The position numbers and the translations under genes are program-made. A stretch of DNA of 52,977 bases from Bacteroidetes bacterium HGW-Bacteroidetes-10. Lineage in GTDB: Bacteria > Bacteroidota > Bacteroidia > Bacteroidales > UBA932. Under the pieces are notes generated by a model, which saw only the letters and a list, made by a program, of their open reading frames with translations, made no database searches and was not told the origin of the DNA. This document shows positions 140-50,203 of the stretch, piece by piece; the stretch's first letter is position 1; every line of letters starts with the position of its first letter. The stretch is from the NCBI GenBank assembly GCA_002842695.1, contig PHDT01000015.1, positions 1 through 52,977 of the forward strand. The letters run 5' to 3'.

Positions 140-265
140 TCTGCGCCGCAATTTCTGTTAAGTGCTTGGCCTATAGTACAATGCAAAACACAAACTCTCA
201 AAAGTGAAAGTTTGTGTTTTGTAAGTAATAGTAAAACAGATGGTTAACAGAAATTGCGGCGCAGA
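140..265. repeat. NIR element, family E, copy 1
   Basis: Perfect 22-bp terminal arms (140-161 and 244-265) enclose a perfect 13-bp inner stem (184-196 and 209-221). The two spacers between outer arm and inner stem are both exactly 22 nt. Arms and inner stem match the copy at 40310-40436, whereas the spacers do not. The outer end of each arm contains an odd-centred palindrome (TGCG C CGCA). It ends 6 nt from the GH92 stop codon. It could be a 3'-end structure, a non-autonomous mobile element or both. Confidence 0.85.
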
Positions 266-271
266 AACTCC

Positions 272-3200
272 CTACTCCGCAAAAATCTCATCAACAAAAA
301 TAAACGCCTGACCGCCGAATCCTTCGTGCCACTGCGGGATGGCGCCGTAGTTCTTTGCGAAGACTTTCAGGAAGCGTCCCTTTGCAGAGATGTTTCCAAG
401 AATCAAATCCTTAATCTGAACATCCATATCCTGATCGCCAACGAAATTATCCACTTTACCTATTAGTGAGTACTCCTTACCATCCTCCGAGATGTAAAAC
501 TCAACATATTTTGGCATCCAGATCCATGACCTGGCATCCTGAAGAAAACCGGCGCCAACCCTCTGCAATGACTTAACAGAGCCCATGTCAATGACAGCAG
601 TAAAGTCGGTATTCTGATACCCCTGCCATCCGCCAAGGCGGAAGTTCTTGCTGCCCCTGACGCCGTCAATGAGCCCCTCATTGCCACCCGCATTGTACTG
701 AGGATTGTATTTTGAAAGAATATCAATGTTCCAGCCCTGATTAATCTTCTTAAACGAAGCCTCAACTGTAAAACTCTTAATCCCGCCGGCACTCACCGAG
801 TATGCGTGAATCTTCGCATTCTCCATCAAAACAATGGAAGAGGCGTATTCTGTAAACTCCTCATCAGATTCATCCTCATCATCAAGATGCTCAATCCTGA
901 AGAAAACCTTATCCTCTCCCGAAAAAGCATTCAGCCTGACCACAAGCGAATCCCTGAAAATATTGTTGTCATACTCAAACCACGGAGAGACAGTAACCGG
1001 CATATCACCAATAAATGACGACGGTCTCTCTGCGTGAGCCGCTCCAAAAGTTACGGAAGGTTTGCTTCCCATCTTAACCTCAAAGTTGCTGCCCGACATA
1101 ATATCCGAATGCATCAGAAACGATTTGCCATAGGCCGCTCCGTTAAGAGATGCACTCTGAACATAGATCTCCTTTCCTGCGTTAAACGACTTGCCAGCAC
1201 CCTTTGCAGTAATTGTAAAACTCTTGCCGTTTTCAAGCTTAACCACACTCTTTTCAAAGAGAGGCGAGCCAAGAGCATATGTGTTGTCGCCCGGGCAAAC
1301 AGGATAGAATCCAAGAGCACTCATCACATACCAGGCACTCATCTGACCGCAGTCGTCGTTGCCGCTCAGCCCGTCAGGAGCAGATGTGTAAAGGGTTTTC
1401 ATAATTTTGCGGACCATCTCCTGAGTTTTCCATGGCGCACCCGCATAATTGTAAAGATAGGCTACATGGTGGCTTGGTTCGTTCCCGTGTGCATACTGGC
1501 CAATGAGACCAGTAATATCAACCTGAGTCCGGCCGGTTGTCTGCGCAGGAGCAGTGAAAAGTTCATCAAGTTTCTTGATATATGCTACATCTCCTCCCAG
1601 AAGCTTAATATGAGTCTCAATATCCTGGGGAACATAGAAGCTGTACTGCCATGAATTGGCCTCAGTAAAGTGCACATTCACCTCAGATGGCGAGAAAGGG
1701 GAGAGCCACTTTCCGTTCAGGCGCGGACGCATAAAACCTGTTGAGGGGTCAAAGAGATTTTTGTAGTACTGTGCTCTGCGGATATACCTTTTGTAGATGT
1801 CGTCGCGCCCAAGGAGACGTGCCGTCTGGGCAATGCACCAGTCGTCATATGCATACTCAAGCGTCTTGGAAACCGATTCATGCTCCAGCTCTGCCGGAAC
1901 AAAACCCTGCCTTCCAAAAATGTTTATTCCATACTCCTTTTTTACCGAGCTCTCAAGCATCGCATCCAGAGCATCATATTTTTCAAACCCGCCAATACCC
2001 TTGCGGATAGCATCGGCCATAACAGAAACAGAGTGGTAACCAATCATGCAGTTAGTTTCATTCCCCGCCAGCTCCCAGATGGGAAGCTTATCTGCCTGCT
2101 CATAAGTAGCAAGGAAAGAGCGAATGAAGTCTGTTGTCCTCTTCTGGTCAATGATTGCAAGCAGAGGATGAAGCGTCCTGTATGTATCCCAGAGAGAGAA
2201 GACAGTATATTGTTCATAACCCTCTGCAGTATAAACCTCCCTGTCCATTCCCCTGTACTCGCCGTTGTAGTCAGAGTAAAGGTTGGGAGCAATTCCGGTG
2301 TGGTAGAGAGCCGTGTAGAAAGTTTTAAGAGCCTCCTGATCCTTACCGGTCACCTCAATCCTGCCCAAAAACTCATTCCATGCACCTTCAGTACCTTTTA
2401 AAATTTTATTAAAATCCCAGTCAGCAGATTCTGCAGTCATGTTTTTCATTGCATTCTCCTCAGAAACCGAAGAGATACCAACCTTTGCCATCACAACATT
2501 TGCACTGCCCGCCTCAAATTCAAAGAGCGCCTTGCAGTTCTTGCCCTTTATAGTTTTAACGGCAGCAGCGCCTGCACCAGTAACAGGAGCCTCGTCAAGA
2601 AAGAGTTTAGAACTCTTAACCGGCTGAGAAAACTCAATGTAGAAATAAACAATCTGATCCTTTGCCCACGATTTCGAACGTCTGTAACCCTTAACAGCCC
2701 TGTCACCCACCATCTCAATGCGCGAATCCAGAACAGGATCCCTGTGAAGAAGATCCAGAACAATCTGAGGTTTCGCCCCGCCTGCATAGGTATACTCATG
2801 AAAACCCATTCTTCTGCCAGAAGTGAGTCTCGCCTTTACCCTCCATGTATCCAGCATCACCTCATAATAGCCGGGAGAGGCCTTTTCATTTTTATGGCTG
2901 AAGGCCGATTTATACTCTTCGTTTATAAGTTTCTCCCCGCCAAAGCCGCTCACAGGCATGAGCAGAATATCGCAATAGTCAGGAACACCGGTTCCGCTAA
3001 GATGCGTATGGCTGAATCCGTATATGAATTTGTCTGAATAGTGGTATCCCGAGCATCCGTCCCATCCCGTCAGGCGGGTATCGGGGCTAAGCTGAACCAT
3101 TCCAAAAGGGTAGGTGGCTCCGGGAAAAGTATGCCCGTGAAAGTCAGTACCTACAAAAGGATTGACATACTCAACCAGGTTAGCTTTTTGATTCTGAGTC

Positions 3201-3283
3201 TTGTTTTGTGCAACTGCAGCATCAGAAATCTGAGCCCCAAAGAGTGCAATAAATGCAAAAGCGGTAAAAATAATTCGCTTCAT
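272..3283 (-). CDS. GH92 family alpha-mannosidase, secreted
   Basis: This is a probable exo-acting alpha-mannosidase (GH92; the family is calcium-dependent and mostly alpha-1,2) that trims mannose from glycans outside the cytoplasm. The product is about 1003 residues. The start is placed at MKRIIFTAFAF because a signal peptide begins there; the 13 codons upstream read through leader DNA. Conserved GH92 blocks are visible: GTDFHGHTFPGATYPFGMVQ near the N-terminus, FSLWDTYRTLHPLL, GNEPSHHVAYLYNYAGAPW and NDDCGQMSAWYVMSALGFYP, the last two carrying the acidic residues used in catalysis and metal binding. The C-terminal roughly 130 residues look like a discoidin/F5-8C-type carbohydrate-binding domain (GLIDG, GGWQGYQ, PKYVEFYIS). 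It is the last gene of a minus-strand series and is followed after 6 nt by an NIR element. Confidence 0.93.
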   Translation of the reverse strand: MKRIIFTAFAFIALFGAQISDAAVAQNKTQNQKANLVEYVNPFVGTDFHGHTFPGATYPFGMVQLSPDTRLTGWDGCSGYHYSDKFIYGFSHTHLSGTGVPDYCDILLMPVSGFGGEKLINEEYKSAFSHKNEKASPGYYEVMLDTWRVKARLTSGRRMGFHEYTYAGGAKPQIVLDLLHRDPVLDSRIEMVGDRAVKGYRRSKSWAKDQIVYFYIEFSQPVKSSKLFLDEAPVTGAGAAAVKTIKGKNCKALFEFEAGSANVVMAKVGISSVSEENAMKNMTAESADWDFNKILKGTEGAWNEFLGRIEVTGKDQEALKTFYTALYHTGIAPNLYSDYNGEYRGMDREVYTAEGYEQYTVFSLWDTYRTLHPLLAIIDQKRTTDFIRSFLATYEQADKLPIWELAGNETNCMIGYHSVSVMADAIRKGIGGFEKYDALDAMLESSVKKEYGINIFGRQGFVPAELEHESVSKTLEYAYDDWCIAQTARLLGRDDIYKRYIRRAQYYKNLFDPSTGFMRPRLNGKWLSPFSPSEVNVHFTEANSWQYSFYVPQDIETHIKLLGGDVAYIKKLDELFTAPAQTTGRTQVDITGLIGQYAHGNEPSHHVAYLYNYAGAPWKTQEMVRKIMKTLYTSAPDGLSGNDDCGQMSAWYVMSALGFYPVCPGDNTYALGSPLFEKSVVKLENGKSFTITAKGAGKSFNAGKEIYVQSASLNGAAYGKSFLMHSDIMSGSNFEVKMGSKPSVTFGAAHAERPSSFIGDMPVTVSPWFEYDNNIFRDSLVVRLNAFSGEDKVFFRIEHLDDEDESDEEFTEYASSIVLMENAKIHAYSVSAGGIKSFTVEASFKKINQGWNIDILSKYNPQYNAGGNEGLIDGVRGSKNFRLGGWQGYQNTDFTAVIDMGSVKSLQRVGAGFLQDARSWIWMPKYVEFYISEDGKEYSLIGKVDNFVGDQDMDVQIKDLILGNISAKGRFLKVFAKNYGAIPQWHEGFGGQAFIFVDEIFAE

Positions 3284-3285
3284 AA

Positions 3286-3320
3286 GGGTATATTGACATT
3301 TGTTATATGCAAATATACCC
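3286..3320. promoter_or_regulatory. Inverted repeat and -7 element before the GH92 gene
   Basis: A perfect 9-bp inverted repeat, GGGTATATT (3286-3294) with AATATACCC (3312-3320), lies 2 nt ahead of the GH92 start codon. On the minus strand it contains TATATTTG (3310-3317), an exact match to the Bacteroidota -7 consensus TAnnTTTG; no TTTG is present 19 nt upstream. It could be a promoter with an overlapping operator, or a hairpin hiding the start codon. Confidence 0.45.
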
Positions 3321-3325
3321 AAATA

Positions 3326-4531: not shown

Positions 4532-5424
4532 TGGTCAAATTTTCCTGAACGGTACTTGTATGCATCCCTGAGAAAATCGGCATAACCCTCAACAGCCGTA
4601 ATGGCGTAAATATTCTCATCCTGAAGCATATTATCAATATTGAGCTGCTCTCCGGCAATTTCATTATCCAGCTGAGCCAGCCTTCTGTAAGTTGGAAGCA
4701 GAGCCTTAACTCCGGTGAGATATTTGGTTATGAAATCAAGCTGAAGCGGAGACATCTCCCTGCAATAATCAGCATGACATTCATGAATCTGTTTGCGGAA
4801 TCCGTCTTCGACCTTTGTGCTAAGCATCATAGCACCCGGCTCAAGCGGAGCATTTTCCCACGCTTTCATTATAGGTTTGATTCTGGCATCTCTTTTTCTG
4901 CTCTCAACGGTATCCCTTAAAGCAATCTCCTGAGAGAGAGCCTTCATTCTGTTTACAAAAGCATCAACCTCACCCTTAAGTCTGAGCTTCTCCTCACTCA
5001 GGGCCACACTTTTCTTTGCCTGTGCCTGGTTAACTCCCCCGGCAGGTTTGCCCGCCTTTGCTGCAGCCATCTGCCTGGCAGCGTACTCTTTACCCCACTT
5101 CTCCTGCTCCGCCTCGCTCATGTTAGCCAGTTTCATCATCTCCTCCTGAGATATGCCGGTTCTTGCAGATACAGCAGCCATTGCATTACCTGCCATCTCA
5201 TCCTTTCTGGCTGAGGCAATATTGCTCAGCCTGTCTGAATACTCCTTTATCTGGCCCTTTACAATAGAAATCTGATTTAAGAACTGGTCTACCTCAGAAT
5301 CTGAAGTGGAGCATACCGACCCCGGTATCCCCGGCAATCCGCCCAGAAAAGCCTCGGGAGTTACCTGCGCAGATGCGCAAAACGCCAGCAGCATTAACCC
5401 TGCTGCAAATAAAATCTTTTTCAT
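4528..5424 (-). CDS. Secreted helical protein of unknown function
   Basis: The 298-residue product has a signal peptide (MKKILFAAGLMLLAFCASAQ) and a mostly helical, charged body. Its helical segments include SKRKDARIKPIMKAW-like stretches and a four-cysteine-poor C-terminus. One pair of cysteines (HECHADYCREM, about residues 215-225) stands out. No enzyme motif is visible. It lies 11 nt downstream of the OmpA-type gene and overlaps the next gene by 4 nt, so it sits in the middle of a three-gene envelope operon. The family was not recognised. Confidence 0.8.
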   Translation of the reverse strand: MKKILFAAGLMLLAFCASAQVTPEAFLGGLPGIPGSVCSTSDSEVDQFLNQISIVKGQIKEYSDRLSNIASARKDEMAGNAMAAVSARTGISQEEMMKLANMSEAEQEKWGKEYAARQMAAAKAGKPAGGVNQAQAKKSVALSEEKLRLKGEVDAFVNRMKALSQEIALRDTVESRKRDARIKPIMKAWENAPLEPGAMMLSTKVEDGFRKQIHECHADYCREMSPLQLDFITKYLTGVKALLPTYRRLAQLDNEIAGEQLNIDNMLQDENIYAITAVEGYADFLRDAYKYRSGKFDQ

Positions 5425-5435
5425 GACCTGTGAGA

Positions 5436-6752: not shown

Positions 6753-6819
6753 TGCACAACTTTTTTTGAAAGTTACTACACATGAAAGCTTTAAAATTGT
6801 AAAAAACGGCAACAAGAGT

Positions 6820-8734: not shown

Positions 8735-10363
8735 TTACAAAACTACATAATAGAAATAACCTACGGGGTGTTTTTCTTTATCTGCAAGCAGATCTTTTAT
8801 ATCTGCATCCTTCTCCAGCTCGCTCTGCATAAGTATAAGAATGATTCTCTCCTCTGCAGCCTCGTGATCCGGTGTTGCAGCAGCCTCAATTCTCTCTCTC
8901 AGCTCCTCTTTTGAAACATCCTGCGGCAAAGCACCAATATAAACATCAATATTCTCTGCCCTTGGTATATTGTAGTACATATAGCGCATGGCTCCGTGCT
9001 CCTCTGCGGCAGCCTTTGCCTCGCGTGATACAGCACCCATTCCAATGTTTGGGTTGTATTCAGGTATAAAGAATGATATGGTAAAGATGGCAGCAAGAAG
9101 ACCAGCTCCCATGGTTATAATAGTTCTGTTAAGCGATTTTTCTGCAACTGCTGCATCTGATTTCCATCTGCCCGAAAGCAGTTGACGAAGAGCAAAAACT
9201 CCTGCCACTGAGAGAACAGCTGTCGCAGCTATAACCCAAACGTTTTTAAGTGCCGGCTCCTCAATAAAAAGAGATGTAATAAGTGCTCCGGGGAGTGCGA
9301 GAGCAAGAAGAGCGGCCGGAAATCCAATCAGCAATCTTGCAAACAGTTTTCCGCTGTATTTTGGAAGCCAGATTACCGTCATAAAGACAAAGAATGCAAA
9401 CGCCGGCAGCATATAAATCTGGATTTTCGAACTTACAAAAGAGAGCATTATAAATGTGCTCAGCAGTGATGTAAGGAAGAATTTTTCAAGGTCTGTTGAG
9501 GCACCTCTTTTGATGAGTCCGGCAGCCAGAACACCCACAATAAGAAATGCCCACGGAGCCAGTGAGTACCAGATTGCGATCATATAGTAGTAGAAAGGCT
9601 CTTTGTGGTGGAAAGAGTCAACGGCTCTGTTTATGGTCTGGTTAAAGAGAAGGTTGTTGATATACTCGTCGCCACCCTCCAGGTATGCACTTGTAAACCA
9701 AACTGCGCAAAGTGCAATAATCACTGAGAGAGTGCGAAGACCCCAGTATTTTGCAATTGACCTGAAGTCGCGTTTCACAACAAGGAATGTTATTGTTGTC
9801 ACAAGAGGAACAAGTATTCCAACAGGTCCCTTTGAGAATATTGCCATAAAGACATAGAGAGGGAACATCCATTTATCGCGCCGCTTCTCCTTTCCGGAGT
9901 ACATTCTGAAAAATGTATAGAGCGAGAGGACAATGAACATGTTCATGAGCATGTCCATTCTCAGAACAACCGCAGAGCCAATAAAAAATACAGATGTGAG
10001 AAGCATTAGCTCACCTGCGATTCTTCCCTGCTGCGAAACCACATTACGTGTCCATCTGCCCATAATCCAAAGAATCACAAGAGCCGGGATATATGAAAAG
10101 AGTGCAAGGAAAAACATGCTGTGTGTGCCGAATATCATCTTGCCTGCCATCACTATCCAGAGATAGAGAGGCGGCTTGTCTGCATAGTGGATTCCATGGT
10201 TCGTGAATGTAAAGAGAGAGCCGTTGCGGATTGCTTCATCTGCAATGCTCATATATCTGAGTTCGTTGTTCCTTGTGAAGTCGCGTGTAAGAAACATGGG
10301 AACGACAGCAAGGAAATAGAGCAGATACCTGTACTTAACTATTAGGCTGAGAAATCTGTTCAT
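8735..10363 (-). CDS. GT39/ArnT-like membrane glycosyltransferase
   Basis: A polytopic membrane protein of 542 residues with about 12 hydrophobic segments. The first periplasmic loop carries RDFTRNNELRYMSIADEAIR followed by YADKPPLYLWIV, the pattern of PMT/ArnT enzymes that transfer a sugar from a polyprenyl-phosphate donor to lipid A or another acceptor on the outer face of the inner membrane. The first acidic position is NNE rather than the DE usual in ArnT. A soluble C-terminal tail of about 120 residues follows the last helix. The start overlaps the LAB_N gene by 29 nt, supporting one transcript. The sugar and acceptor are inferred only. Confidence 0.87.
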   Translation of the reverse strand: MNRFLSLIVKYRYLLYFLAVVPMFLTRDFTRNNELRYMSIADEAIRNGSLFTFTNHGIHYADKPPLYLWIVMAGKMIFGTHSMFFLALFSYIPALVILWIMGRWTRNVVSQQGRIAGELMLLTSVFFIGSAVVLRMDMLMNMFIVLSLYTFFRMYSGKEKRRDKWMFPLYVFMAIFSKGPVGILVPLVTTITFLVVKRDFRSIAKYWGLRTLSVIIALCAVWFTSAYLEGGDEYINNLLFNQTINRAVDSFHHKEPFYYYMIAIWYSLAPWAFLIVGVLAAGLIKRGASTDLEKFFLTSLLSTFIMLSFVSSKIQIYMLPAFAFFVFMTVIWLPKYSGKLFARLLIGFPAALLALALPGALITSLFIEEPALKNVWVIAATAVLSVAGVFALRQLLSGRWKSDAAVAEKSLNRTIITMGAGLLAAIFTISFFIPEYNPNIGMGAVSREAKAAAEEHGAMRYMYYNIPRAENIDVYIGALPQDVSKEELRERIEAAATPDHEAAEERIILILMQSELEKDADIKDLLADKEKHPVGYFYYVVL

Positions 10364-10970
10364 TGTGTTTTTTATGCAGTACTATATTCCTGATATAGGC
10401 TATGAATCCGAATGACTGACCAAGAATTAGGACAGGATCCATCCTGAGCAGGGCGTAAATAATAATTATTGAGGAGCCGGAAAGGCTTATTATCCAGAAA
10501 CCAAGAGGCAGTACAGACTCTCCCTTTTTGACAGAGTAGATAAGCTGATAGACAAACCTGAGGGTAAATATCACCTGTCCTGCCGAGCCCATAATGAGCA
10601 TCCACAGAGGGATGTTTTCGTTTCTGAGAAATGTGGCAGCAAATTCAGATGCATCACCTGATGCAAAGAAGATAGCAACCGGAGGTGTTATTACAAGAAT
10701 TGCCCTTATCAGAAACGGGACTTTTTTCCAGACACTTTTTGCGTTCAGGTTCCAGATATAGATGTAATATGCAATTACCTGTCCCAGGATTATTGCGAAA
10801 TCTTCCCTCATCCATCCGTAAATGAAAAAGAGCCATGAGGCGACAATGCTCAGAATCCAGAAAATTGAAGGTGACAGAGATTTTTTGGCCCTTTCAGAGA
10901 GAATCCACTGAAGAACTGTTCTTGCTCCGAAAAAGAGCTGAGCCAGGAATCCTATTGCGTAAACGAGCAT
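10335..10970 (-). CDS. LAB_N (lipid-A-disaccharide synthase N-terminal) domain protein
   Basis: A small integral membrane protein of 211 residues made of two related LAB_N-like halves. The first begins IGFLAQLFFGARTVLQWILS and the second repeats the pattern at about residue 130 (AGQVIFTLRFVYQLIYSVKK). Despite the family name these stand-alone proteins lack the catalytic part of LpxB. They are often found next to a GT2 and a GT39, as here, and may help a polyprenyl-phosphate sugar across or within the membrane. The start overlaps the GT2 stop by one nucleotide (TAATG). Confidence 0.88.
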   Translation of the reverse strand: MLVYAIGFLAQLFFGARTVLQWILSERAKKSLSPSIFWILSIVASWLFFIYGWMREDFAIILGQVIAYYIYIWNLNAKSVWKKVPFLIRAILVITPPVAIFFASGDASEFAATFLRNENIPLWMLIMGSAGQVIFTLRFVYQLIYSVKKGESVLPLGFWIISLSGSSIIIIYALLRMDPVLILGQSFGFIAYIRNIVLHKKHNEQISQPNS

Positions 10971-17637: not shown

Positions 17638-17762
17638 ACATGTCAGCCTAAATTACAAAGCGTTACAGATCAGTAATATATAATTTCTATTTTTAGATTT
17701 TATTGAAGATTTGTTTTTGTAATTATCAGAATATCAATATTATGTAAATTAGGCTGACATGT
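17638..17762. repeat. NIR element, type A, between copA and the sensor kinase
   Basis: Arms 17638-17656 and 17744-17762 are inverted copies matching at 18 of 19 positions, enclosing an 87-nt AT-rich loop. The element begins 36 nt after copA and ends 12 nt before the GTG start of the kinase, so it fills the leader and promoter region. Short words near the loop ends (ATCAGTAAT and AGAATATCA) also occur in the 36248-36379 element. It could carry or block the kinase promoter; no good promoter was seen in either orientation. Confidence 0.7.
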
Positions 17763-26948: not shown

Positions 26949-27063
26949 GCCCGTGTCGCTGTAACTCACTATCAATCAACGACAGCCACTTTGTCCCCGC
27001 GGATGATCCGCGGGGACAAAGTGCTACTGACTGAGGATCTGCGAGTTGCAGCCGTGCGGGTCG
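26949..27063. repeat. M1-type mosaic palindromic repeat, copy 1
   Basis: The core (26987-27023) is an odd-centred palindrome with two perfect 18-nt arms beginning CACTTTGTCCCCGCGGAT. It is flanked by CCCGTGTCGCTGTAACTCA on one side and GTGCTACTGACTGAGGATCT plus GCCGTGCGGGTC on the other. The same arrangement occurs at 27246-27453, 31007-31213 (opposite strand) and 35955-36065. The 27064-27114 stretch after it has no recognisable content. This is REP-like intergenic DNA without a supported protein. Confidence 0.75.
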
Positions 27064-27170: not shown

Positions 27171-27245
27171 CCAGCACGCCCTTGCTCAGTTTTCGTTTGC
27201 CTGTCTTGGTTTGAGCGATGTTTCCATGTTCATTTTTCAGGCCTG

Positions 27246-27453
27246 CCCGTGTCGCTGTAACTCACTGTCAATCAGCGACAGCCACTTTGTCCCCGCGGAT
27301 CATCCGCGGGGACAAAGTGCTACTGACTGAGGATCTGTACGTTGCGGCCGTGCGGGTCGAGCGACTGAAAGTTGGAGAGTGAGCCAGGCCGGGAACTTGC
27401 GCGTGAAGCGCTGCACCGCCACCGCCGGTCTGCCGGTGGTACCTTCTTTTGCA
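27246..27453 (-). repeat. M1-type mosaic palindromic repeat, copy 2 (long form)
   Basis: This longer copy contains the 37-nt palindrome at 27283-27319 (perfect arms, centre C instead of G), then CTGACTGAGGATCTG, the GCCGTGCGGGTCGA word, and a distal GC-rich end GCGCTGCACCGCC with GGTACCTTCTTTTGC. Read from the other strand it aligns over about 205 nt with 31007-31213. From 27457 to 27549 only a short CCTGAGT/ACTCAGG hairpin (27469-27490) was seen. Confidence 0.75.
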
Positions 27454-27549
27454 GCCATACACCGGCGGCCTGAGTGTTGTTTAACTCAGGCTGCCATGCG
27501 TGCTGTCCAGCTCAGGCTGAGATGAGTGTTGTCTAAGTTTTTCAGATCT

Positions 27550-27700
27550 CTTCAGAGCATCTTGATCTGAACTTCTTGATCTGAGCATCTTGATTTGAGC
27601 TTCTTGATCTGAACTTCTTGATTTGAGCATCTTGATCTGAGGTTCTTGATTTGAGTCTCTTGGTCAGAGAGACTTGATCAGTGCTTCTTGATGAGTGCGG
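27550..27700. repeat. 14-bp tandem repeat overlapping the end of sucD
   Basis: Ten consecutive 14-bp units start at 27561 (CTTGATCTGAACTT and variants such as CTTGATTTGAGCAT), with a shortened unit before them. The last three units, from 27659, are more diverged. The array runs through the sucD stop codon (27678-27680), and the final one and a half units encode its C-terminal LIKKH. Because 14 is not a multiple of 3, each extra unit would shift the reading frame if gained upstream of the stop. Confidence 0.9.
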
Positions 27701-28541
27701 GGATTTCGGCGGGTTCGTTTACGACGTGGGCGCCTGCGGCGGTGAGGGCGGCGAGTTTCTCGCCGGCCGAGCCGCTGCCGCTCGAGATGATTGCTCCTGC
27801 ATGGCCCATGCGTTTGTCCGCAGGCGCCGTCCGGCCTGCAATAAACGAGTAAACAGGTTTGGTGATATTTGCCTTGATGTAGGCTGCCGCTTTCTCCTCC
27901 GCATCTCCGCCAATCTCGCCTATCATCACAATCGAATCAGTGTCCGGGTCATCCTGAAACATCTGCAAAAGGTCAATGAAATAGAGCCCGGCAACAGGGT
28001 CGCCACCAATTCCAACTGCAGTTGACTGGCCGATTCCTGCCTGTGTGAGATTGTAGACTACTTCGTATGTGAGGGTTCCGCTCCTTGAGATTACACCGGT
28101 TTTGCCGGGCATGAAAATGTTGCCCGGCATAATTCCAATCAGGGATTTTCCCGGAGATATCAGCCCCGGACAATTTGGACCAATAATTTTTGCCCCCATT
28201 GCGAAGGCGTAGTGCCTTGCTGCAATAATGTCGAGTGTAGGGACGCCCTCGGTTATACAGATTATCAGCTTAATGCCTGCGTCGGCAGCCTCCATGACTG
28301 CATCTTTTACAAAGGGAGCAGGTACAAATATAATTGAGGTGTCTGCTCCCTCTTTTTCAACAGACTCTCTGACTGTGTTGTAGACCGGAATTCCGCCTGC
28401 ATCTGTTCCGCCTTTACCGGGAGAGATTCCTGCAACCACCTTTGTGCCGTACTCTTTCATCTTTGCAGCATGAAACCCGCCATCTCTGCCTGTGATTCCC
28501 TGAACCACAACTTTGGTATTTTTATCTATAAGAATGCTCAT
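27678..28541 (-). CDS. sucD: Succinate-CoA ligase, alpha subunit
   Basis: The alpha subunit of succinyl-CoA synthetase, 287 residues, TCA cycle substrate-level phosphorylation. The CoA-binding Rossmann half begins [20 protein letters not shown]; the phospho-histidine is in [13 protein letters not shown] at about residue 247. It follows sucC by 92 nt on the same strand. Its C-terminal codons lie in the 14-bp tandem array that continues as the 3' untranslated region, so the exact C-terminus may have been set by repeat expansion. Confidence 0.96.
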
Positions 28542-31006: not shown

Positions 31007-31213
31007 GCAAAAGAAGGTACCGCCGTCACGCCGGCGGTGGAGGTGCAGCGCTTCGCGCGCAAGTTCCCGGCCAGGTTCACTTTCCAGCACTCAGCCGCCC
31101 GACCCGCACGGCTGCAACGTGCAGATCCTCAGTCAGTAGCACTTCGTCCCCGCGGATCATCCGCGGGGATAAAGTGGCTATCGCTGATTGACAGCTAGTT
31201 AGAGCGACACGGG
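31007..31213 (+). repeat. M1-type mosaic palindromic repeat, copy 3
   Basis: This aligns over its full length with the reverse complement of 27246-27453: GCAAAAGAAGGTACCGCC at one end, GGTGCAGCGCTTCGCGCGCAAG, GACCCGCACGGC, the palindrome (31140-31176, with two mismatched positions between arms) and GCGACACGGG at the other. It occupies most of the 388-nt gap between the dehydratase and MFS genes; the rest (30861-31006) shows nothing recognisable. Confidence 0.75.
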
Positions 31214-31248
31214 TAGGGCTCAACGACAAGGGTAGGGGTTCAACGATT

Positions 31249-32559
31249 TCAGGATGGGAGCTCTTTCGCAAACTTGGCAATCGCAGGCAGCATGGGAGAT
31301 ATCAGCCCTATGGCTATCAGCATAAAGCCGGAAATTATGAAAGCGTTGGTCACGCCAATCGAGTCGGCAATATAACCGGTGGCCATGAGCGAAAACATTG
31401 CCGGAATCATAATCAGGCTGTTGTGAATCGAGAAAACCCGGCCAAGCACGGAGCTGTCCAGCGAACTCTGAAGCAGTACGGTAAAGGCACCCCAGAAAAT
31501 TGCTCCGGAGATACCTCCTATAAATGTGAATGCCACAAAGAAGATATACCCCGCAGAAGGCAGAAAACCGGAAAAGGCAAAAGTCAGCCCTAAAATGACG
31601 TACATTGCATTGATTAGCAGGATATTGTTAAACTTGAACTTAGGGAGACTCATAAGTCCTCCACCCGCGAGCATCCCAATTCCCCACGCCACCTCCACAA
31701 CGCTCATTTTATATGTGTCGCCGGCAAAGTGGTCCAGCGTCATAAGCGGGAAAAGTGTTGAAATAGGAACCATGGCCAGGCTTGCAAAAATTGTAAAAAT
31801 GAACATCCACATGAGTCCCGGGCGTTTAAGGATTTCGTGCAATCCAACTTTGAGCTCTGCATAGAATTTATGAAACTCTGTACCAATTTTGTCTTTGTCG
31901 GGACTCTTTTCAACAGGCAGATTTTCTGGTGATAATTCTGCAGCTTTTCTCGCATCCCTCGGGCTGGGAATATGGACAAACAGTAAAGACGAACTGGCAA
32001 CAAGCGCCCCAAACACATCAAAAAGCAAAACCCAGGTCATGTCTAACGTGCTCACAAATAGCGCTGCAAGTGCGGGAGCAGCTATCGAGCTCATAGAAAA
32101 AATCATGTTGTTCACACCGGCCACCCTCATAAGTTCGCTCTGCGGAGCAAGCAGCGGCACAGACGCCTCCATTGCAGGCATGTGAAAAGCACTTCCTATT
32201 GACCTGAGAGTCAGCAGCACATATATTATGCCGATTTCCACCTCGCCGGTATAGAAGAGCACAGCCATAACCGCAGTCATAAGAGCAATGTAGAGATCGG
32301 CAATTATCATTACCTTTTTGCGGTCCCATCTGTCAATGAGAACACCGGTGAAAAGACCAAGCACAAGCTGGGGCAGTAGCGAGGCAATCGTCGCAAAAGC
32401 AAGTACTTCTGCAGATCCCGTCTCGATACTCAGCCAGAAGATAACTGCAAAACTCACCATCGAACTGCTCAGTGTAGAGAAGAGCTGCCCTGTCCAGATA
32501 AAGCCAAAGGTTCTTTTCCAGTTTGTTATGTTCTGCGGATTTTCGTGTGTGTTGCTCAT
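31249..32559 (-). CDS. MFS exporter (EntS/MFS_3-like)
   Basis: A 436-residue inner-membrane transporter with about 12 membrane segments. The cytoplasmic motif A appears as TGVLIDRWDRKKVMIIAD at about residue 75. The central loop (about 205-235) is charged and holds SPENLPVEKSPDKDKIGTEF. Overall it resembles the MFS_3 group (enterobactin exporter and macrolide efflux-like). The substrate is not predictable. It appears monocistronic and is divergent from the PqqD gene. Confidence 0.87.
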   Translation of the reverse strand: MSNTHENPQNITNWKRTFGFIWTGQLFSTLSSSMVSFAVIFWLSIETGSAEVLAFATIASLLPQLVLGLFTGVLIDRWDRKKVMIIADLYIALMTAVMAVLFYTGEVEIGIIYVLLTLRSIGSAFHMPAMEASVPLLAPQSELMRVAGVNNMIFSMSSIAAPALAALFVSTLDMTWVLLFDVFGALVASSSLLFVHIPSPRDARKAAELSPENLPVEKSPDKDKIGTEFHKFYAELKVGLHEILKRPGLMWMFIFTIFASLAMVPISTLFPLMTLDHFAGDTYKMSVVEVAWGIGMLAGGGLMSLPKFKFNNILLINAMYVILGLTFAFSGFLPSAGYIFFVAFTFIGGISGAIFWGAFTVLLQSSLDSSVLGRVFSIHNSLIMIPAMFSLMATGYIADSIGVTNAFIISGFMLIAIGLISPMLPAIAKFAKELPS

Positions 32560-34346: not shown

Positions 34347-34454
34347 TGCCTCAGAGGTAAAGTGTCAAATATCACATTATCAGTTAGTTAATAAAAACTA
34401 TTAAATTTCATATATATCAGTTTATCAGCGATTTGACACTTTACCTCTGAGGCA
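34347..34454. repeat. NIR element, family B, copy 1 (upstream of the ROK gene)
   Basis: Perfect 24-bp arms (34347-34370 and 34431-34454) flank a 60-nt AT-rich loop. It begins 33 nt after the fimbrillin-like stop and ends 64 nt before the ROK kinase start. The inner arm (AAGTGTCAAA) and loop words (ATCA, TAGTTA, TTTATCA) match the element at 35774-35879, whereas the outer arm is different but still perfectly paired. Each outer arm holds an odd-centred palindrome (CCTC A GAGG). Confidence 0.85.
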
Positions 34455-35879: not shown

Positions 35880-35954
35880 GCAATCTCATTTCTTCAGTGC
35901 AAATTTCATCAAATCAAGATTAGCAAACAGTTTCATAAGATTCAGGCTATGGGC

Positions 35955-36065
35955 CCGTACGGCTGCAATGCTCTGTTAATCAGCGAGAGCCACTTTGTCC
36001 CCGCGGATCATCCGCGGGGTCAAAGTGCTACTATAAGATATTCAAATAGTTGCAGCCGTGCGGGT
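35955..36065. repeat. M1-type mosaic palindromic repeat, copy 4
   Basis: The palindrome is at 35991-36027 with 18-nt arms that differ at one or two positions, flanked by GGCCCGTACGGCTGCA and TTGCAGCCGTGCGGGTC. These flanks are themselves inverted copies of each other, giving a nested palindrome. Confidence 0.7.
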
Positions 36066-36096
36066 CAAAGAAAAATGCCCTGCCATAACACACCCG

Positions 36097-36243
36097 AAAC
36101 CCTTGCCATGCAAAGAGATGCGAACTCTTTCATGCAAGTTTGAAAAACCTTTGCCGAAGGCTTACTTCGCCGGGCGGATGCCCGGCACCATAAAAGGTAC
36201 CGGCAGCTCCGCAGCCGGTGAAGGTGCAGCGCTGCGCGCAAAC
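36097..36243 (+). repeat. M2-type mosaic repeat, copy 3
   Basis: An imperfect hairpin with CTTGC/GCAAG ends (36100-36140) is followed by GAAAAACCTTTGCCGAAGGCT, a GCCGGGC/GCCCGGC hairpin, a second hairpin ACCGGC...GCCGGT and GAAGGTGCAGCGCTGCGCGC. This is the order of the window-start copy, and it likewise runs straight into an NIR element. Confidence 0.65.
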
Positions 36244-36247: not shown

Positions 36248-36379
36248 AAACTCTGCCAGAGTTTTTACGAAATAATTGTAAATCAGTAATTAAGATAAAT
36301 AATTTTTGCATTTTTCTGAGCGAATAATTTGGATAAGTCATAGAATATCAGTAAGTTCGTAAAAACTCTGGCAGAGTTT
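36248..36379. repeat. NIR element, type H, with terminator-like arms
   Basis: Perfect 24-bp arms (36248-36271 and 36356-36379). Each outer arm is a 17-nt odd-centred palindrome (AAACTCTG C CAGAGTTT). Reading rightward the left arm is followed by TTTTTAC and the right arm by a TTTTCTTCTTCTTC tract, so both could act as rho-independent terminators. An AT-rich inner pairing (36297-36304 with 36323-36330, one mismatch) is centred exactly, leaving 25-nt spacers on both sides. Confidence 0.8.
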
Positions 36380-40309: not shown

Positions 40310-40436
40310 TCTGCGCCGCAATTTCTGTTAACTATCAGTATATCATTAAAATACAAAACACAAACTTTCCATTTTGAAAAGTTTGTGTTTTGTAATGCAC
40401 ACATATTGTGCGTGTTAACAGAAATTGCGGCGCAGA
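40310..40436. repeat. NIR element, family E, copy 2
   Basis: Perfect 23-bp arms (40310-40332 and 40414-40436) and a perfect 17-bp inner stem (40352-40368 and 40378-40394). Both spacers are exactly 19 nt. Arms and inner stem equal those of 140-265; spacers do not align. It ends 7 nt from the stop of the nuclease gene, the same placement as copy 1 relative to GH92. Confidence 0.88.
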
Positions 40437-43466: not shown

Positions 43467-43467
43467 C

Positions 43468-43605
43468 ACCTTGCCTTACTTTTTCGCAACCAACACTATT
43501 ACAGCGATATAACACATACAACTTTTCCAAAACCACCAAATTTTGGAAAAGTTGTACCATTCAATTATCATTAAACCAATAACTTGCGAAAAAGTAAGGC
43601 AAGGT
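43468..43605. repeat. NIR element, family F, copy 1
   Basis: Perfect 22-bp arms (43468-43489 and 43584-43605), perfect 15-bp inner stem (43518-43532 and 43541-43555), spacers of exactly 28 nt each. It fills the gap between two convergent genes, with one nucleotide left on each side of their stop codons. A second copy at 50066-50203 has the same length and differs at eight positions, all in the loop and right half. Confidence 0.93.
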
Positions 43606-43606
43606 C

Positions 43607-45181: not shown

Positions 45182-45190
45182 AAATTCAGT

Positions 45191-45634: not shown

Positions 45635-47120
45635 CTTTTTTTTCTCCTATTTTTTTAGGTAATGTAAAGTAAAATACCGCTCCTTTATCCACTTCACCTT
45701 CTGCCCACGTACGGCCGCCATGCCTTTTTATTACCTGGCGGACATTAGCAAGGCCGATTCCTGTTCCTTCAAACTCCTCGTTTGAGTGCAGCCTCTGAAA
45801 AACCCCAAACAGTTTCTGAGCATAATTCGAATCGAATCCTGCACCATTATCCTTAACAAAGAAAACATACTCACCGTTCACTTCGCTCCATCCAACAGAT
45901 ATATAGGCCACCTCCCTGAATTTGGTGTATTTGACAGCATTCCCCAGCAGATTCACCCAAACCTGACGAATCATCGAGTAGTCTGCATGTACAAAAGGCA
46001 GTGAATTGATATCCCATACAATGTTCCTGCCCTTGATATCATTATCAAGAATCATAAGGGCATCCCTTACAGCCTTGTTCATGTCAATGTTATCCGGTTT
46101 GAGCTCGGCTCTTCCCGAACGGGAGAAGTTGAGCAGGTCATCAATCAGATGCCCCATATGGTTAGATGCCTCATAAATTGAGCTGATATAGTGTTTCCCC
46201 TTTTCGTCCAGCTGCTCAGAATTCTTTTTCTGAAGAAGTTCAAGATATCCGTTTATATGTCTGAGCGGAGCCCTCAGGTCATGCGAGACTGAATAGGAGA
46301 AGGATTCAAGCTCCTTGTTGGCAGATTCAAGAAGTTCCGTTCGCTCGGCAACCTTCCTTTCAAGCGAGGCATTCAGATCGCGAATCTCATCAAGTGCCTT
46401 GTCCCGTTCAATCTCTCTTTTCAAAAGCTGAGAAAGCATATTGTTAAACTGCTCGTAAAGGAAACCCACCTCGTCGTTTCCGTGCTGCTCAACCTGCATG
46501 GAGAGGTCATGATTTTTCGAAATAGCCCCGGTAAGCTTTGCCAGGTGCATAATTGGAGCCGATACCATTTTTTGCATCCGCCATGCCAAAATGTAAGAGA
46601 GAATCAGCAGAACCACCGCCAAAAGAGAAAAAGTAAGCGAAATACGTCTGATCTGACTCTTTATCTCGCTGTCGTTGGCTTTGAGATAGATAAGGCCAAG
46701 TTTCTCCCCTTTAAAGAGTATTGGTTCCTGAACTATAAAGATTCCTTTGCTGAACGACAATGAGCTCTCCTCCCCGGGAACAGGCGGTTTTACGCTGTCG
46801 AGTGAATCCGGATACCTTGCAAAGAGCACTCCTTTATCATCATAAAGGTATCCCTCTTCGACTGTCTCCAGGAAGTTGATTCTGGCGAGAGCTTCGCCGG
46901 CCTGGGTCTTGTCCCCGAAAACCAGCGGAACAACGCAGTAGTCGCCAATGAGCTTTGCATTAAGGACCAGATTCTCTCTGGTAACCTTCCTTACATTGTC
47001 AATCTCAATCCTTGCAATGGCAACAAACCCTGCAGCCATGGCGAGAAACCCCGTGAACATAACTATAACAAGTATCTTGTTCTTAATTGAGAGGTCCTTT
47101 ATGAATTGAAAATTGCTCAT
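45627..47120 (-). CDS. Membrane sensor histidine kinase with HAMP domain
   Basis: A 497-residue kinase starting at MSNFQFIKDLSIKNKILVIV. The first membrane helix (about 13-35) is followed by a periplasmic CHASE8-like sensor (about 36-160; LIGDYCVVPLVFGDKTQAGE). A second helix lies at about 163-183, then HAMP, a coiled coil, HisKA (SYSVSHDLRAPLRHINGYLE) and the ATPase domain (NLLGNAVKYTKF, KDNGAGFD, GTGIGLANVRQVIKRHGG). The HisKA/ATPase pair resembles bacteriophytochrome-like kinases that pass phosphate to Rcp1-type receivers, such as the one directly downstream. Confidence 0.92.
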   Translation of the reverse strand: MSNFQFIKDLSIKNKILVIVMFTGFLAMAAGFVAIARIEIDNVRKVTRENLVLNAKLIGDYCVVPLVFGDKTQAGEALARINFLETVEEGYLYDDKGVLFARYPDSLDSVKPPVPGEESSLSFSKGIFIVQEPILFKGEKLGLIYLKANDSEIKSQIRRISLTFSLLAVVLLILSYILAWRMQKMVSAPIMHLAKLTGAISKNHDLSMQVEQHGNDEVGFLYEQFNNMLSQLLKREIERDKALDEIRDLNASLERKVAERTELLESANKELESFSYSVSHDLRAPLRHINGYLELLQKKNSEQLDEKGKHYISSIYEASNHMGHLIDDLLNFSRSGRAELKPDNIDMNKAVRDALMILDNDIKGRNIVWDINSLPFVHADYSMIRQVWVNLLGNAVKYTKFREVAYISVGWSEVNGEYVFFVKDNGAGFDSNYAQKLFGVFQRLHSNEEFEGTGIGLANVRQVIKRHGGRTWAEGEVDKGAVFYFTLPKKIGEKKDD

Positions 47121-47193
47121 TTCCGGTTTTTTCTGATTCTGTTTTTTATAAATTGTTCGAATCAAAATATTAATTCGAATCTATATAATAATA

Positions 47194-47814
47194 CTACTCT
47201 ATTAGAATCGCAGAGTTAAGAAGCAAGCTGCTCATCTTTAGCCCCGATCTCCCCAGCGAACCCTTGTTCACCTCGAACCTTATCATGTCATTTACAACAA
47301 TCATATTGATTATGAGCCCAAGCTTTCCGTAGCCCTTTGTCTCACCAATCGTTAATACCTGTTTCCCGGCTGTGGCCGCAACAATACTTTTAACCTCAGA
47401 AGCCGGAATCTCCCCCGAAATTACCAGGATTCTGTGGTCAGTCAGCTGGCTGGCAGAGGTAATTTTCTTGATTATCACCTTTTTGTCTTTCACTTTTACC
47501 TTCATGAATATCTGCACAAGAGCTACAATCAGGTCATTTTCACCAATGACGGCAATCTTGAAAGTAGTATCAGCCCCAAAACTTTTCTCGTCCCATTCAA
47601 CAAACTGGGTGAACTTCTGCACAAAACCAGCCTTGAGCATGCTCTCCCTTGTCTGCGGAATAACAGGCAGAGGGCGAGCGGGCGCAGCCGAAGCCGCCCG
47701 CTCGCCGGGAGGCTGTAAGCCACCCTCTGTTGCGTGCGCAGCCTGCGAAAACAGAATCGGTATAACCAAAACAGGAATCAGAAACAGAAAAAATATGATT
47801 TTAGATTTTCTCAT
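47194..47814 (-). CDS. YfiR-family (DUF4154) periplasmic protein
   Basis: A 206-residue exported protein of the YfiR family. In Pseudomonas YfiR represses a diguanylate cyclase; in Bacteroidota it is often between a TonB receptor and a CHASE8/HAMP kinase, as here. The signal peptide is MRKSKIIFFLFLIPVLVIPI. The core has KAGFVQKFTQFVEWDEKSF, IAVIGENDLIV, RILVISGEI and a C-terminal GLIINMIVVNDMIRFEVN. Between the signal and the core (about residues 33-50) a PPGERAASAAPARPLP linker is encoded by a GC-rich palindrome (47673-47706). Confidence 0.88.
   Translation of the reverse strand: MRKSKIIFFLFLIPVLVIPILFSQAAHATEGGLQPPGERAASAAPARPLPVIPQTRESMLKAGFVQKFTQFVEWDEKSFGADTTFKIAVIGENDLIVALVQIFMKVKVKDKKVIIKKITSASQLTDHRILVISGEIPASEVKSIVAATAGKQVLTIGETKGYGKLGLIINMIVVNDMIRFEVNKGSLGRSGLKMSSLLLNSAILIE
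47673..47706. repeat. GC-rich palindrome inside the YfiR gene
   Basis: GGCGAGCGGGCG (47673-47684) pairs perfectly with CGCCCGCTCGCC (47695-47706) across a 10-nt loop. It is read in frame as an Ala/Arg/Pro linker behind the signal peptide. Confidence 0.65.
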
Positions 47815-47820
47815 CTCTTT

Positions 47821-49959
47821 CTATTTGAACAGGTTGTAAGTAACCATAAGTGTAATTGTACGCTGAGGCTGCCTGTAGCGGCCGGCAAAGCGATTGGATG
47901 GATGGTACCATTTGGCATTCAGCAGGTTGGTTCCCTTAAGCTGAAAGTCAAATCCCTTTAATCCGTTGTATGATATGGTTCCGTTAAATATCAGTGCCGA
48001 ATATATCAAATCGTCATTTGTTGACGGAATAATCTGCGGATTCCTTCTGCTGCCGGTGTAATTTGCCCGCAGACCTGCTTTGAAATGTTTCCCGAATGAG
48101 TAACTGATCCCCGCATTTGCATTGTGATTTGAAATCTCTGGAATAAAAGAATCAAACTTGTCAAAAGAGTTCGTGTATGTGTAATTTGCATACAGGTTCA
48201 GGGATTTGGTAGTATAATTTCCAAATAGCTCCACCCCAAAGGTATTGACCTCTTCTGCATTAATTATGGTTCCGCCCGAAGTATAGGGAAGCAGCACCAG
48301 CTTATCCTTAATAAGATTGGAGTAAATTGATGCTCCTGCAGAGAGACCTTTGCCAAAATTATATGAGCCAAAAAATTCTAAGGAGTGCATCATCTCGGGA
48401 CGGAGATTTGGGTTTCCTGCGCCGTAGTTATAGTCCCAGGGGCGGGGCGCCCTGAAAGCCCGGTTGTAGAGAAGTTTCGCTGTGAATTTACCTGCGTTAA
48501 AAACAAGGCCGCCTCTTGGAGTAAAAACACTCCCGTAATAGCTCGAAAAGTCATGCCGCGCCCCGCCCACAAAAGAAAGTTTCTCAAAAATCTTCCAGTC
48601 TGCCTGCAGATAATAGCTGAACATATTGTTACTGAGCATCTCCGGCCGCTCCGGCTCCTCAGGCTTTGTAAGATCATTGCCGCTTATGGTCTCCGAAAAA
48701 TTTGCCGCAAGCATTTCAAACTCTCCAACAACTCCGCCGGTTACCAGCAAATTCTTTACACCCCGCCAGATAAGCTGATGCTCAGTTCCCGCAAGCATTC
48801 CCGGCCTGTAGTAGCCCGCCTGATAACCCGGAGAGCTCTCTGTCTGCCTCACAACCCGGTCAATAGTATTTGGAAGTACAGTTGTATTTCTGTAGTAGAG
48901 TGAAGAGTTGTAAGTAAGATTCTTGTTATCAGAATTCGAATATTTCACATAACCATTAAGGAATGCGATGTTCCACTTTGTGCCACTGTCGCGGAAGATA
49001 TCACCATTCGACCTGAAATTGGTAGACATGGACGACTCCTTTCTCATATAGTTAACCCCGGCAGAAAATCCCTTCAAATTCACCTTTGCAGAGAGGCTGA
49101 TATCGTGCTCGAAGTTCTCCATATTTTCTGTCCAGTTGTTGTCCCCCGCTTCGCCCGCCAGATCTGCCTTCTCAGAAGTTTTGTACATCCCTGCCACAGA
49201 AAAGCCCATATCCTTCTCCTTATTATAACCGTTAAGCTGAAAGTCTGCCATTCCGGTCATGAAGCTGCCGCCAAGCAGAGAGAGATGCCCGCCCCTCATA
49301 TTCCCGTTAGCAGTATTGACAACACCAGCTTTTGAACCCTTGGTAATTATATTAATAATCCCAGACACCGCATTGGTCCCGTAAAGCGGAGATGCCGGCC
49401 CGTAGACCACCTCAATCCGTTCAATATTAGACATCTGATACTGTCCGCCCCCATAGAAGCCACCAGAATTGAGCTCATTGACCTGAACACCATCAACCAG
49501 CAGCAGAATCAGACTATTCTGGCTGGGCGCCCCCCTCATAAAAACATAACTGTTAAAGCCGACAATATTTCTGAACTGAAATCCCGGCAAATCCCCCAGC
49601 GCCTCCTCCAGGGTAAAGTAACCCCTCTCCTTAATCTGCGCCGCCGTAATCACCTGCACCGCCGCCGGCACATCCTTTACATCCTGACTAACCTTAGAAG
49701 CACTCGTAACCTTCGTGTTCATCAGGTCCAGAAACGACATCCCGATAATATCCTCAACCTTAAGTGAATCCTGAGATTTATTTACACCCTGAACCTCATC
49801 ATTCGACCTGACTACCCCCTGAGCCAGCACCAAATCCGGCATCAGAGTCAGACCCCCTGCCAAAAGGCTCACCAAAACCCAGCGACGAACCATCACCAGG
49901 TCCCAAACCCCGGCCTGTACAACCTCGCTAACCCATTTCAAAAGCCACGCCCTTCTCAT
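47821..49959 (-). CDS. TonB-dependent outer-membrane receptor
   Basis: An outer-membrane beta-barrel of about 712 residues. Start options are 49995, 49959 and 49893; a -7-like element at 49998-50005 makes the first unlikely, and the A/T-rich leader before 49959 suits this phylum, whereas 49893 would give a shorter signal peptide (MVRRWVLVSLLAGGLTLMPD). The plug domain shows DVKDVPAAVQVITAAQIKER, GFNSYVFMRGAPSQNSLILL and IERIEVVYGPASPLYGTNAV, then the barrel ending in a terminal aromatic-rich strand (TITLMVTYNLFK). Ligand unknown; it heads the YfiR/kinase operon, so it may act as a signalling input. Confidence 0.93.
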   Translation of the reverse strand: MRRAWLLKWVSEVVQAGVWDLVMVRRWVLVSLLAGGLTLMPDLVLAQGVVRSNDEVQGVNKSQDSLKVEDIIGMSFLDLMNTKVTSASKVSQDVKDVPAAVQVITAAQIKERGYFTLEEALGDLPGFQFRNIVGFNSYVFMRGAPSQNSLILLLVDGVQVNELNSGGFYGGGQYQMSNIERIEVVYGPASPLYGTNAVSGIINIITKGSKAGVVNTANGNMRGGHLSLLGGSFMTGMADFQLNGYNKEKDMGFSVAGMYKTSEKADLAGEAGDNNWTENMENFEHDISLSAKVNLKGFSAGVNYMRKESSMSTNFRSNGDIFRDSGTKWNIAFLNGYVKYSNSDNKNLTYNSSLYYRNTTVLPNTIDRVVRQTESSPGYQAGYYRPGMLAGTEHQLIWRGVKNLLVTGGVVGEFEMLAANFSETISGNDLTKPEEPERPEMLSNNMFSYYLQADWKIFEKLSFVGGARHDFSSYYGSVFTPRGGLVFNAGKFTAKLLYNRAFRAPRPWDYNYGAGNPNLRPEMMHSLEFFGSYNFGKGLSAGASIYSNLIKDKLVLLPYTSGGTIINAEEVNTFGVELFGNYTTKSLNLYANYTYTNSFDKFDSFIPEISNHNANAGISYSFGKHFKAGLRANYTGSRRNPQIIPSTNDDLIYSALIFNGTISYNGLKGFDFQLKGTNLLNAKWYHPSNRFAGRYRQPQRTITLMVTYNLFK

Positions 49960-49997
49960 AATTAAGATAATTAGATGAATAAACGGGGAACACATCT

Positions 49998-50005
49998 CAA
50001 ATGTA
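49998..50005 (-). promoter_or_regulatory. Candidate -7 element for the TonB receptor operon
   Basis: TACATTTG on the minus strand matches TAnnTTTG; no TTTG stands 19 nt upstream. Transcription would start near 49990, after the first possible ATG of the receptor gene. Confidence 0.4.
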
Positions 50006-50065
50006 ACAAATAATTGCAGATAATAGTTTCATAACCACAATGTTTTTGCAGGCTGCCACAACAGG

Positions 50066-50203
50066 ACCTTGCCTTACTTTTTCGCAACCAACACTATTAC
50101 AGCGATATAACACATACAACTTTTCCAAAACCACAAAATTTTGGAAAAGTTGCACCATTCAAATGTCATTGAGTCAATTACTTGCGAAAAAGTAAGGCAA
50201 GGT
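50066..50203. repeat. NIR element, family F, copy 2
   Basis: Perfect 22-bp arms (50066-50087 and 50182-50203), inner stem 50117-50130 with 50139-50152, spacers of 29 nt each. It has the same 138-nt length as 43468-43605, 130 positions identical. Its last base is part of the stop codon of the DUF6933-like gene. CAGG occurs directly on both sides (50062-50065 and 50204-50207), a possible 4-bp target duplication not seen at the other copy. Confidence 0.93.

Follow-up and report, generated by a model that had tools for sequence, protein, structure and literature searches.

The stretch of DNA analysed here, referred to as the window, is the 52,977 nt contig C28 of a 2.41-Mb, 42-contig genome (93.5% complete) of Bacteroidetes bacterium HGW-Bacteroidetes-10, a member of the Bacteroidales. 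It carries eight nested inverted-repeat elements, which we studied together with transposases of the REP-associated tyrosine transposase (RAYT) type encoded elsewhere in the same genome, REP standing for repetitive extragenic palindromic. All eight elements are present at the positions assigned to them in a first-pass annotation made from the sequence alone. Their arms, described there as near-perfect and 19–24 bp long, measure 20–24 bp (22, 20, 24, 20, 24, 23, 22 and 23 bp in window order, the second with one mismatch), and the inner stem attributed to four elements was found in those at 140–265, 40310–40436, 43468–43605 and 50066–50203. Comparison within this genome and among its relatives makes it highly probable that the elements are non-autonomous mobile DNA resembling REPINs (REP doublets forming hairpins) and TIRtrons, each family being served in trans by its own RAYT. 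The elements, which have no assigned strand, are as follows.

140..265: E1-family element, 126 bp; arms TCTGCGCCGCAATTTCTGTTAA, central stem; cognate RAYT on contig C18
17638..17762: E2-family element, 125 bp; arms ACATGTCAGCCTAAATTACA, without a strong central stem; cognate RAYT C29:18245
34347..34454: E3-family element, 108 bp; arms TGCCTCAGAGGTAAAGTGTCAAAT; cognate RAYT on C19
35774..35879: E4-family element, 106 bp; arms ACCCCTGGGGAAAAGTGTCA; a RAYT with such an arm not found in the own genome
36248..36379: E5-family element, 132 bp; arms AAACTCTGCCAGAGTTTTTACGAA; cognate RAYT C29:9487, in two open frames
40310..40436: E1-family element, 127 bp; central stem present
43468..43605: E7-family element, 138 bp; arms ACCTTGCCTTACTTTTTCGCAA, central stem; cognate RAYT on C1
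50066..50203: E7-family element, 138 bp; central stem present

A scan of the window for inverted repeats with arms of at least 16 bp and an overall length of 90–150 bp returned nine, against 1 in total over 30 dinucleotide shuffles; the ninth is a weaker repeat at 50857–50998. Distinct arm sequences had been claimed for different families, and six arm families are indeed present, but the eight elements are not independent sequences: the element at 140 belongs to the same family as that at 40310, the element at 43468 to the same family as that at 50066, and AAAGTGTC is common to the arms of 34347 and 35774. The reported closeness to gene ends stands with a changed count. By our open reading frame (ORF) boundaries, a stop codon is found within 50 nt of seven of the eight elements, not of six, the exception being 36248–36379; the element at 43468–43605 is flanked by two convergent stop codons, and the final base of that at 50066–50203 coincides with the last base of the adjoining gene's stop codon. 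An Rfam search yielded nothing at gathering scores, and a tRNA/tmRNA search found none.

Repeat families and their RAYT genes

One element from each of five families was used to search the own genome, and the searches returned 53 match rows for E1, 32 for E2, 52 for E3, 63 for E5 and 28 for E7; a palindromic element may match both strands, so rows are not equal to copies. The first-pass annotation had held that a real class should recur outside the window. All five queried families do recur elsewhere, with an uneven distribution: a window-type scan of 160 kb from five larger contigs gave 0 repeats (ten shuffle rounds there gave 2), where by our arithmetic an even spread of the 102 aligned copies would predict about 7. 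The inverted-repeat pattern is real and is unevenly spread over the genome. The aligned copies (E1 18, E2 24, E3 14, E4 11, E5 23 and E7 12) were recovered by scanning the window and the loci fetched round the matches, and are no census; a further 29 repeats of that scan were classed as 'other' and include 115-bp copies, a pair with CCTGGCAGG arms and a few weak family copies.

Within each family the length is close to fixed, with modal values of 127 bp for E1 (16/18 copies), 125 bp for E2 (24/24), 108 bp for E3 (13/14), 106 bp for E4 (10/11), 132 bp for E5 (18/23) and 138 bp for E7 (10/12). In the modal-length copies of the six families the mean column identity is 0.96–1.00 in the arms and 0.60–0.84 in the interior. 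Because lengths are near-fixed and interior identity is low, the interiors diverge mainly by substitution, with the spacing preserved. Among the 1960 arm pair-cells summed over the six families, pairing is retained by changes on both sides in 14 and lost in 81; since double-sided changes are this rare, the arms are held as sequence and not merely as a helix. The earlier notion of a design conserved more than its sequence applies between families and between species, but not within a family, where the arms are near-invariant and go with the family RAYT.

In the central stems, 90% (E1) and 92% (E7) of the cells pair in register, and 11 and 6 cells, respectively, are changed on both sides, compared with 33–61% paired and 0–4 double-changed when the register is slid by 1–3; CACAAAC/GTTTGTG, GACAAAC/GTTTGTC and AACAAAC/GTTTGTT exemplify the covariation in E1. 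The central hairpin of these two families is maintained as structure. Their interiors are symmetrical beyond the arms (mean z about 4; 18/18 and 12/12 copies in the top 5%), and in E2, E3, E4 and E5 such symmetry is weak (mean z 1.1–1.6). An interior motif like ATCAGTAATATA common to all families was considered and rejected: comparison of 6-mers gave weak, partial sharing, with GATATA enriched in four of the six.

Between two E7 copies on C1 lies a gene whose protein has HVH and Y motifs, and four other genes of the own genome match Pfam Y1_Tnp. A profile from four of these RAYTs recovers the same five loci and none beyond, one of them as two open frames; the proteins share 29–47% identity over their aligned parts. 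Each of the five genes is bracketed by copies of a single family, a different one in every case: E7 on C1, E1 on C18, E2 at C29:18245 and E3 on C19 (loci L215–L218), and E5 at C29:9487, with E5 copies at 9233–9364 and 10245–10376. In type, these RAYTs are Y1/HUH single-strand DNA transposases extended at the C terminus by a helical, helix-turn-helix (HTH)-like domain. A structure model of a relative's RAYT (L136, Bacteroidales bacterium CF; mean predicted local distance difference test score, pLDDT, of 83.8) has an HUH-like core and C-terminal helices. Its best PDB match is 4ER8, the Escherichia coli RAYT bound to a REP hairpin (E 6.2e-7, 18% identity, TM score 0.71 by target and 0.46 by query). 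This match emerged by fold comparison only, a PDB sequence search with the RAYT profile having given none at E 0.1. The C-terminal part, whose Pfam HTH match is weak (E 0.019), is probably an HTH domain.

The nature of these genes bears on a second kind of mobile DNA, namely classical miniature inverted-repeat transposable elements (MITEs), which are deletion derivatives of DDE-type insertion sequences with the same terminal repeats. Short, multi-copy, intergenic elements with an AT-rich interior and perfect terminal repeats would suit this explanation. However, the genes between paired elements are Y1/HUH RAYTs (no search was made for a DDE insertion sequence with these arms), and no target-site duplication was seen by eye in the 16-nt flanks of the 102 elements, so that we consider a MITE origin highly improbable. 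Y1 transposases are expected to leave no such duplication, and its absence thus supports RAYT-mediated mobility. The flanks show family-specific preferences: a T-run for E4, and G at −5 and −3 for E7.

Orthologous sites, relatives and genomic placement

The E2 element at 17638–17762 sits between an ATPase and a histidine kinase gene. At the same site in the relative G020, where the ATPase side is 84% identical, two arms are fused into about 34 nt and the interior is lost; in G010, G012 and G024 the two genes adjoin and the element is absent. Orthology in these three rests on gene order, as the kinase is only about 50% identical, and G010 and G024 are apparently very close; in the other 13 of the 17 loci examined, a kinase match was not seen beside the ATPase. 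G020 shares the E1 element at 140–265: site and orientation agree and identity is 88%, so some insertions are older than the G020 split. Of the explanations listed in the first-pass annotation, REPIN/MITE-like mobile DNA is the one that is well supported, through the cognate RAYT genes, the multi-copy families and a site that is filled, scarred or empty depending on the species.

The orthologous E1 element also bears on the idea that the elements are invertible segments or recombination-site arrays of the integron-cassette kind. Long inverted arms are compatible with this, as are the seven same-orientation E7 copies that alternate with open frames within 7 kb around their RAYT (G000:C1:345-6961). 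Yet the single intact orthologous element compared is not inverted (72% identity if reversed), and invertible DNA is left unsupported, although no invertase search was made; the cassette-array interpretation of C1 was dropped once a RAYT was identified as the gene lying between two of the E7 copies. The attC motif reads RYYYAAC...GTTRRRY, and by eye the element ends do not. Inversion or cassette recombination is extremely unlikely here, and the clustering of the seven copies near their RAYT would fit local hopping.

RAYT matches were obtained in 44 of the 80 genomes searched (own included) and in 21 of the 24 other genomes of the genus. The flanks of 67 RAYT loci, own included, were scanned for an inverted repeat of 60–200 bp with arms of at least 13 bp, at most 350 bp from the gene; matches beyond these loci are outside the counts. 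A flank repeat is present at 42 of the 67. When near-identical proteins are removed, 50 loci remain, including four own and one non-Bacteroidales locus (L146), and 31 of them carry a repeat; for Bacteroidales relatives only, the figure is 27 of 45. The control, 69 RAYT-homologue loci mostly from other phyla and unmatched in base composition, gave 45 repeats in 538 kb, from which by our arithmetic about 0.07 repeats are expected per locus. Across the 31 loci, RAYT similarity correlates with arm similarity (Mantel r 0.63; none of 5000 permutations reached this value, the maximum being 0.24). A midpoint-rooted RAYT tree of 65 rows separates 49 Bacteroidales sequences from the 16 others with support 100/98, and its subgroups share arms: CCTTGCC..., CCTCAGAGG..., TCTCCGCGCCA..., and E1 with L135.

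At up to one mismatch, the E7-type arm of relatives is present in 7 of the 25 genomes of the genus and absent from the own genome; the seven include all five genomes in which that RAYT subtype was identified (G004, G009, G010, G012 and G017; chance P 0.0004 in a test framed after the data were seen). The own genome holds 25 matches to the own-type E7 arm, G020 three and G004 one. Paired by hand, E7-type arms in relatives span 135–136 bp in 20 of 26 cases, as do 12 of 12 pairs of the own genome, although arm and interior differ. A central stem of other sequence is found in L142 (E7-type arm) and L283 (different arm), and L260 and L295 (E7-type) have none as clear. An arm similar to that of E4 flanks RAYT L284 of G022. 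Two relatives have a long and very stable compound hairpin of about −74 to −78 kcal/mol downstream of RAYT and element (L136:4946–5078 and L138:3712–3845).

Among the 102 own copies, 89 lie between predicted genes, with 44 in tandem, 32 in convergent and 13 in divergent gaps; 4 are inside ORFs (at least 90 aa), and 9, which have no gene on one side, were not classed. The baseline from five stretches is 68 tandem, 16 convergent and 15 divergent among 99 gene pairs, or 3887, 2924 and 3026 intergenic bases, respectively. By bases, convergent gaps are slightly over-represented (36% versus 30%) and divergent gaps about halved (15% versus 31%). REPs are described as lying predominantly downstream of coding regions (PMC3733652).

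This placement bears on a gene-end RNA explanation, also raised in the first-pass annotation, in which the elements would be bidirectional terminators or mRNA 3′-end stabilizers common to many genes. Besides the seven window elements close to stop codons and the convergent third of the classed copies, it can draw on the covarying central stems and on three inner stems that score as terminator-like. Against this, the arms are kept as sequence and not as pairing; 44 copies are in tandem and 13 in divergent gaps; a distance of 50 nt or less is only somewhat commoner at stops (47/108) than at starts (23/70); and terminator-like sites are not in excess (21, three of them the inner stems of these elements, versus 17.0 in shuffles, sd 5.2). 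The five families that each bracket a RAYT would also be left unexplained. A shared 3′-end RNA structure is thus improbable as the main function, although some copies may have been co-opted for a gene-end role. We read the gene-end bias as mostly tolerated intergenic insertion, perhaps with some co-option as terminators.

Known systems and proposed mechanism

REPINs and RAYTs were described in Pseudomonas fluorescens SBW25, and the account given there (PMC3116915) resembles the present system in several respects: an inverted pair of ends that are highly conserved, more so than the spacer, with a characteristic spacing, a mostly extragenic location, separate groups per genome that are each near their own RAYT, and a RAYT dimer proposed to work in trans. 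Three canonical REPIN features are present here, namely inverted conserved ends, many extragenic copies and a RAYT flanked by the family (5/6). Nevertheless, the two systems differ. The own families are without the conserved GT[AG]G tag, a tetranucleotide that canonical REPs have at the hairpin foot and that is found in both arms of 1 of 102 own copies (either strand, 6 nt outside included); in relatives, it occurs somewhere on either strand in 14 of 31 RAYT-flanking arms, a raw count irrespective of position. The arms are 20–24 bp long and perfectly paired, and five RAYTs accompany five families of near-fixed length, two of which have a covarying central hairpin. The RAYTs here also have the C-terminal helical domain. 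The ends of canonical REPINs are small palindromes in themselves; in the present families, stems of at least 4 bp inside the arm exist in E1, E3, E4 and E5 but not in E2 and E7, and in 13 of 31 RAYT-flanking arms versus 23% of shuffles. The system works like REPIN/RAYT and, since its families fail the GT[AG]G feature, is not filed as a canonical REPIN.

TIRtrons (TIRYTs) are tyrosine transposase genes with long inverted repeats unrelated to GTAG REPs, some of which belong to repeat families and some of which are double palindromic (PMC3733652). The own genome likewise has Y1 transposases between long inverted repeats of non-GTAG type that make up a repeat family, but here each gene has on either side elements that are complete inverted-repeat units in themselves. 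The motif GGGGWSAS, given as a majority feature and not as one of every terminal inverted repeat (PMC3733652), is in none of 7 own and none of 31 RAYT-flanking arms; the system otherwise answers the description of a TIRtron. In the classification of PMC6006769, subclass 2.6 of TnpA-REP is mostly from Bacteroidetes, and its genes have 'atypical secondary structures' on their flanks, of which the genome holds further copies; subclass 2.1 has an HTH-like C-terminal tail, its authors reporting no REP-like sequences for it; and subclass 2.7 has the Y motif YI[LR][NQ]NP but is tied to canonical GT[AG]G REPs. The RAYTs here mostly carry YILxNP with an HuH–Y spacing of 57–60 (45 of 50 proteins scored), whereas subclass 2.6 is listed with YIH[QN]NP and a median distance of 82; the spacing speaks against subclasses 2.6 and 2.4. 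Compared by motifs and spacing with the published subclass table, they fit no subclass cleanly: YILxNP is partly like the motif of 2.7, the C-terminal extension is like that of 2.1, and the phylum agrees with 2.6. Members may already be within the supplementary lists of that study (PMC6006769). In the open-licence literature we recognized no paper as describing these families.

How the elements might move can be outlined from the known enzymes. The E. coli enzyme cuts REP DNA that is single-stranded and also performs strand joining (PMC8266576). For REPINs, the model is that a dimer of the RAYT handles an inverted pair in trans (PMC3116915). By analogy, we propose that each RAYT would recognize its own arm pair on single-stranded DNA. 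The element would become single-stranded, for example on the lagging-strand template, and two RAYT subunits would recognize the two inverted arms through their sequence. The arms would be kept in register by the fixed spacing and, in families that have one, by the central hairpin. Cleavage and rejoining by the RAYT, possibly with some role for its C-terminal part, would then copy or move the element. Copies would persist mostly between genes because insertion there is tolerated, and would decay after loss of the RAYT. More tentatively, these RAYTs may form a Bacteroidales branch with a two-part address, consisting of a family-specific arm sequence of 20–24 bp, read perhaps by the C-terminal helical domain, and a fixed arm-to-arm distance, which a central hairpin would maintain in some families. 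Such a branch might have radiated by paired change of transposase and arm, to give at least five orthogonal pairs in one genome.

Several observations weigh against RAYT-served mobility. Mobility is deduced by comparing sequences, transposition itself not having been observed. In the own genome, the C1 RAYT has no Pfam match at 0.001, and the NCBIfam model REP_Tyr_transpos scores four own proteins and one of a relative at 35.8–48.1 bits, under its cut-off of 80. One of the five RAYTs (C29:9487–10238) is split in two open frames, so the E5 family may no longer be served by it, and no matching RAYT was found for E4 or the 115-bp family in the 93.5%-complete assembly. Among the non-redundant Bacteroidales relatives, the scan gave no inverted repeat within 350 bp for 18 of 45 RAYT loci, and some of the repeats at the other 27 are short or weak (L270, L272 and L304). 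The best-matching flanked RAYT also carries the best-matching arm in only 15 of 31 cases, and common descent of gene and flank explains part of the RAYT–arm correlation. In G022 and G024 the E7-type arm is present although the loci examined include no RAYT of that subtype, and G020 (82% complete) has many E2 copies and no RAYT match.

With five RAYTs and five target families in one genome, and differing sets in members of the genus, the target specificity of RAYTs becomes mappable. The families constitute a natural set of matched transposase–target pairs, relevant to the co-evolution of RAYTs and repeats and to the question of why bacteria retain them, and the fixed length and covarying inner hairpin lead to testable ideas on a single-stranded intermediate. 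RAYT-served mobile DNA would also explain repeats otherwise taken for gene-end regulatory structures.

Other repeats and a transporter gene

A separate family of 115-bp nested inverted repeats occurs in the window at 26949–27063, 27245–27359, 31102–31216 and 35953–36067. It has outer arms like GACCCGTACGGCTGTAAC and an inner 18-bp stem, CACTTTGTCCCCGCGGAT, and gave 62 match rows in the genome; several copies are paired about 300 bp apart, and copies are also found at contig ends. Next to these repeats, a 14-bp tandem repeat of about 9–12 units of the TTGATCTGAGCATC type spans 27527–27706. Two inverted repeats of 123 bp elsewhere in the own genome (L062:718–840 and L122:1281–1403), whose arms start CCTGGCAGGAT, possibly represent a further family. 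Other short repeats, for example AAACCTTTGCCG and GGTGAAGGTGCAGCGCTGCGCGC, recur at 55–132, at 36131–36239 and beside several elements, which therefore sit in repeat mosaics. The gene at 31249–32559 on the minus strand encodes a major facilitator superfamily transporter resembling the macrolide efflux Mef proteins, well below the Mef cut-offs.

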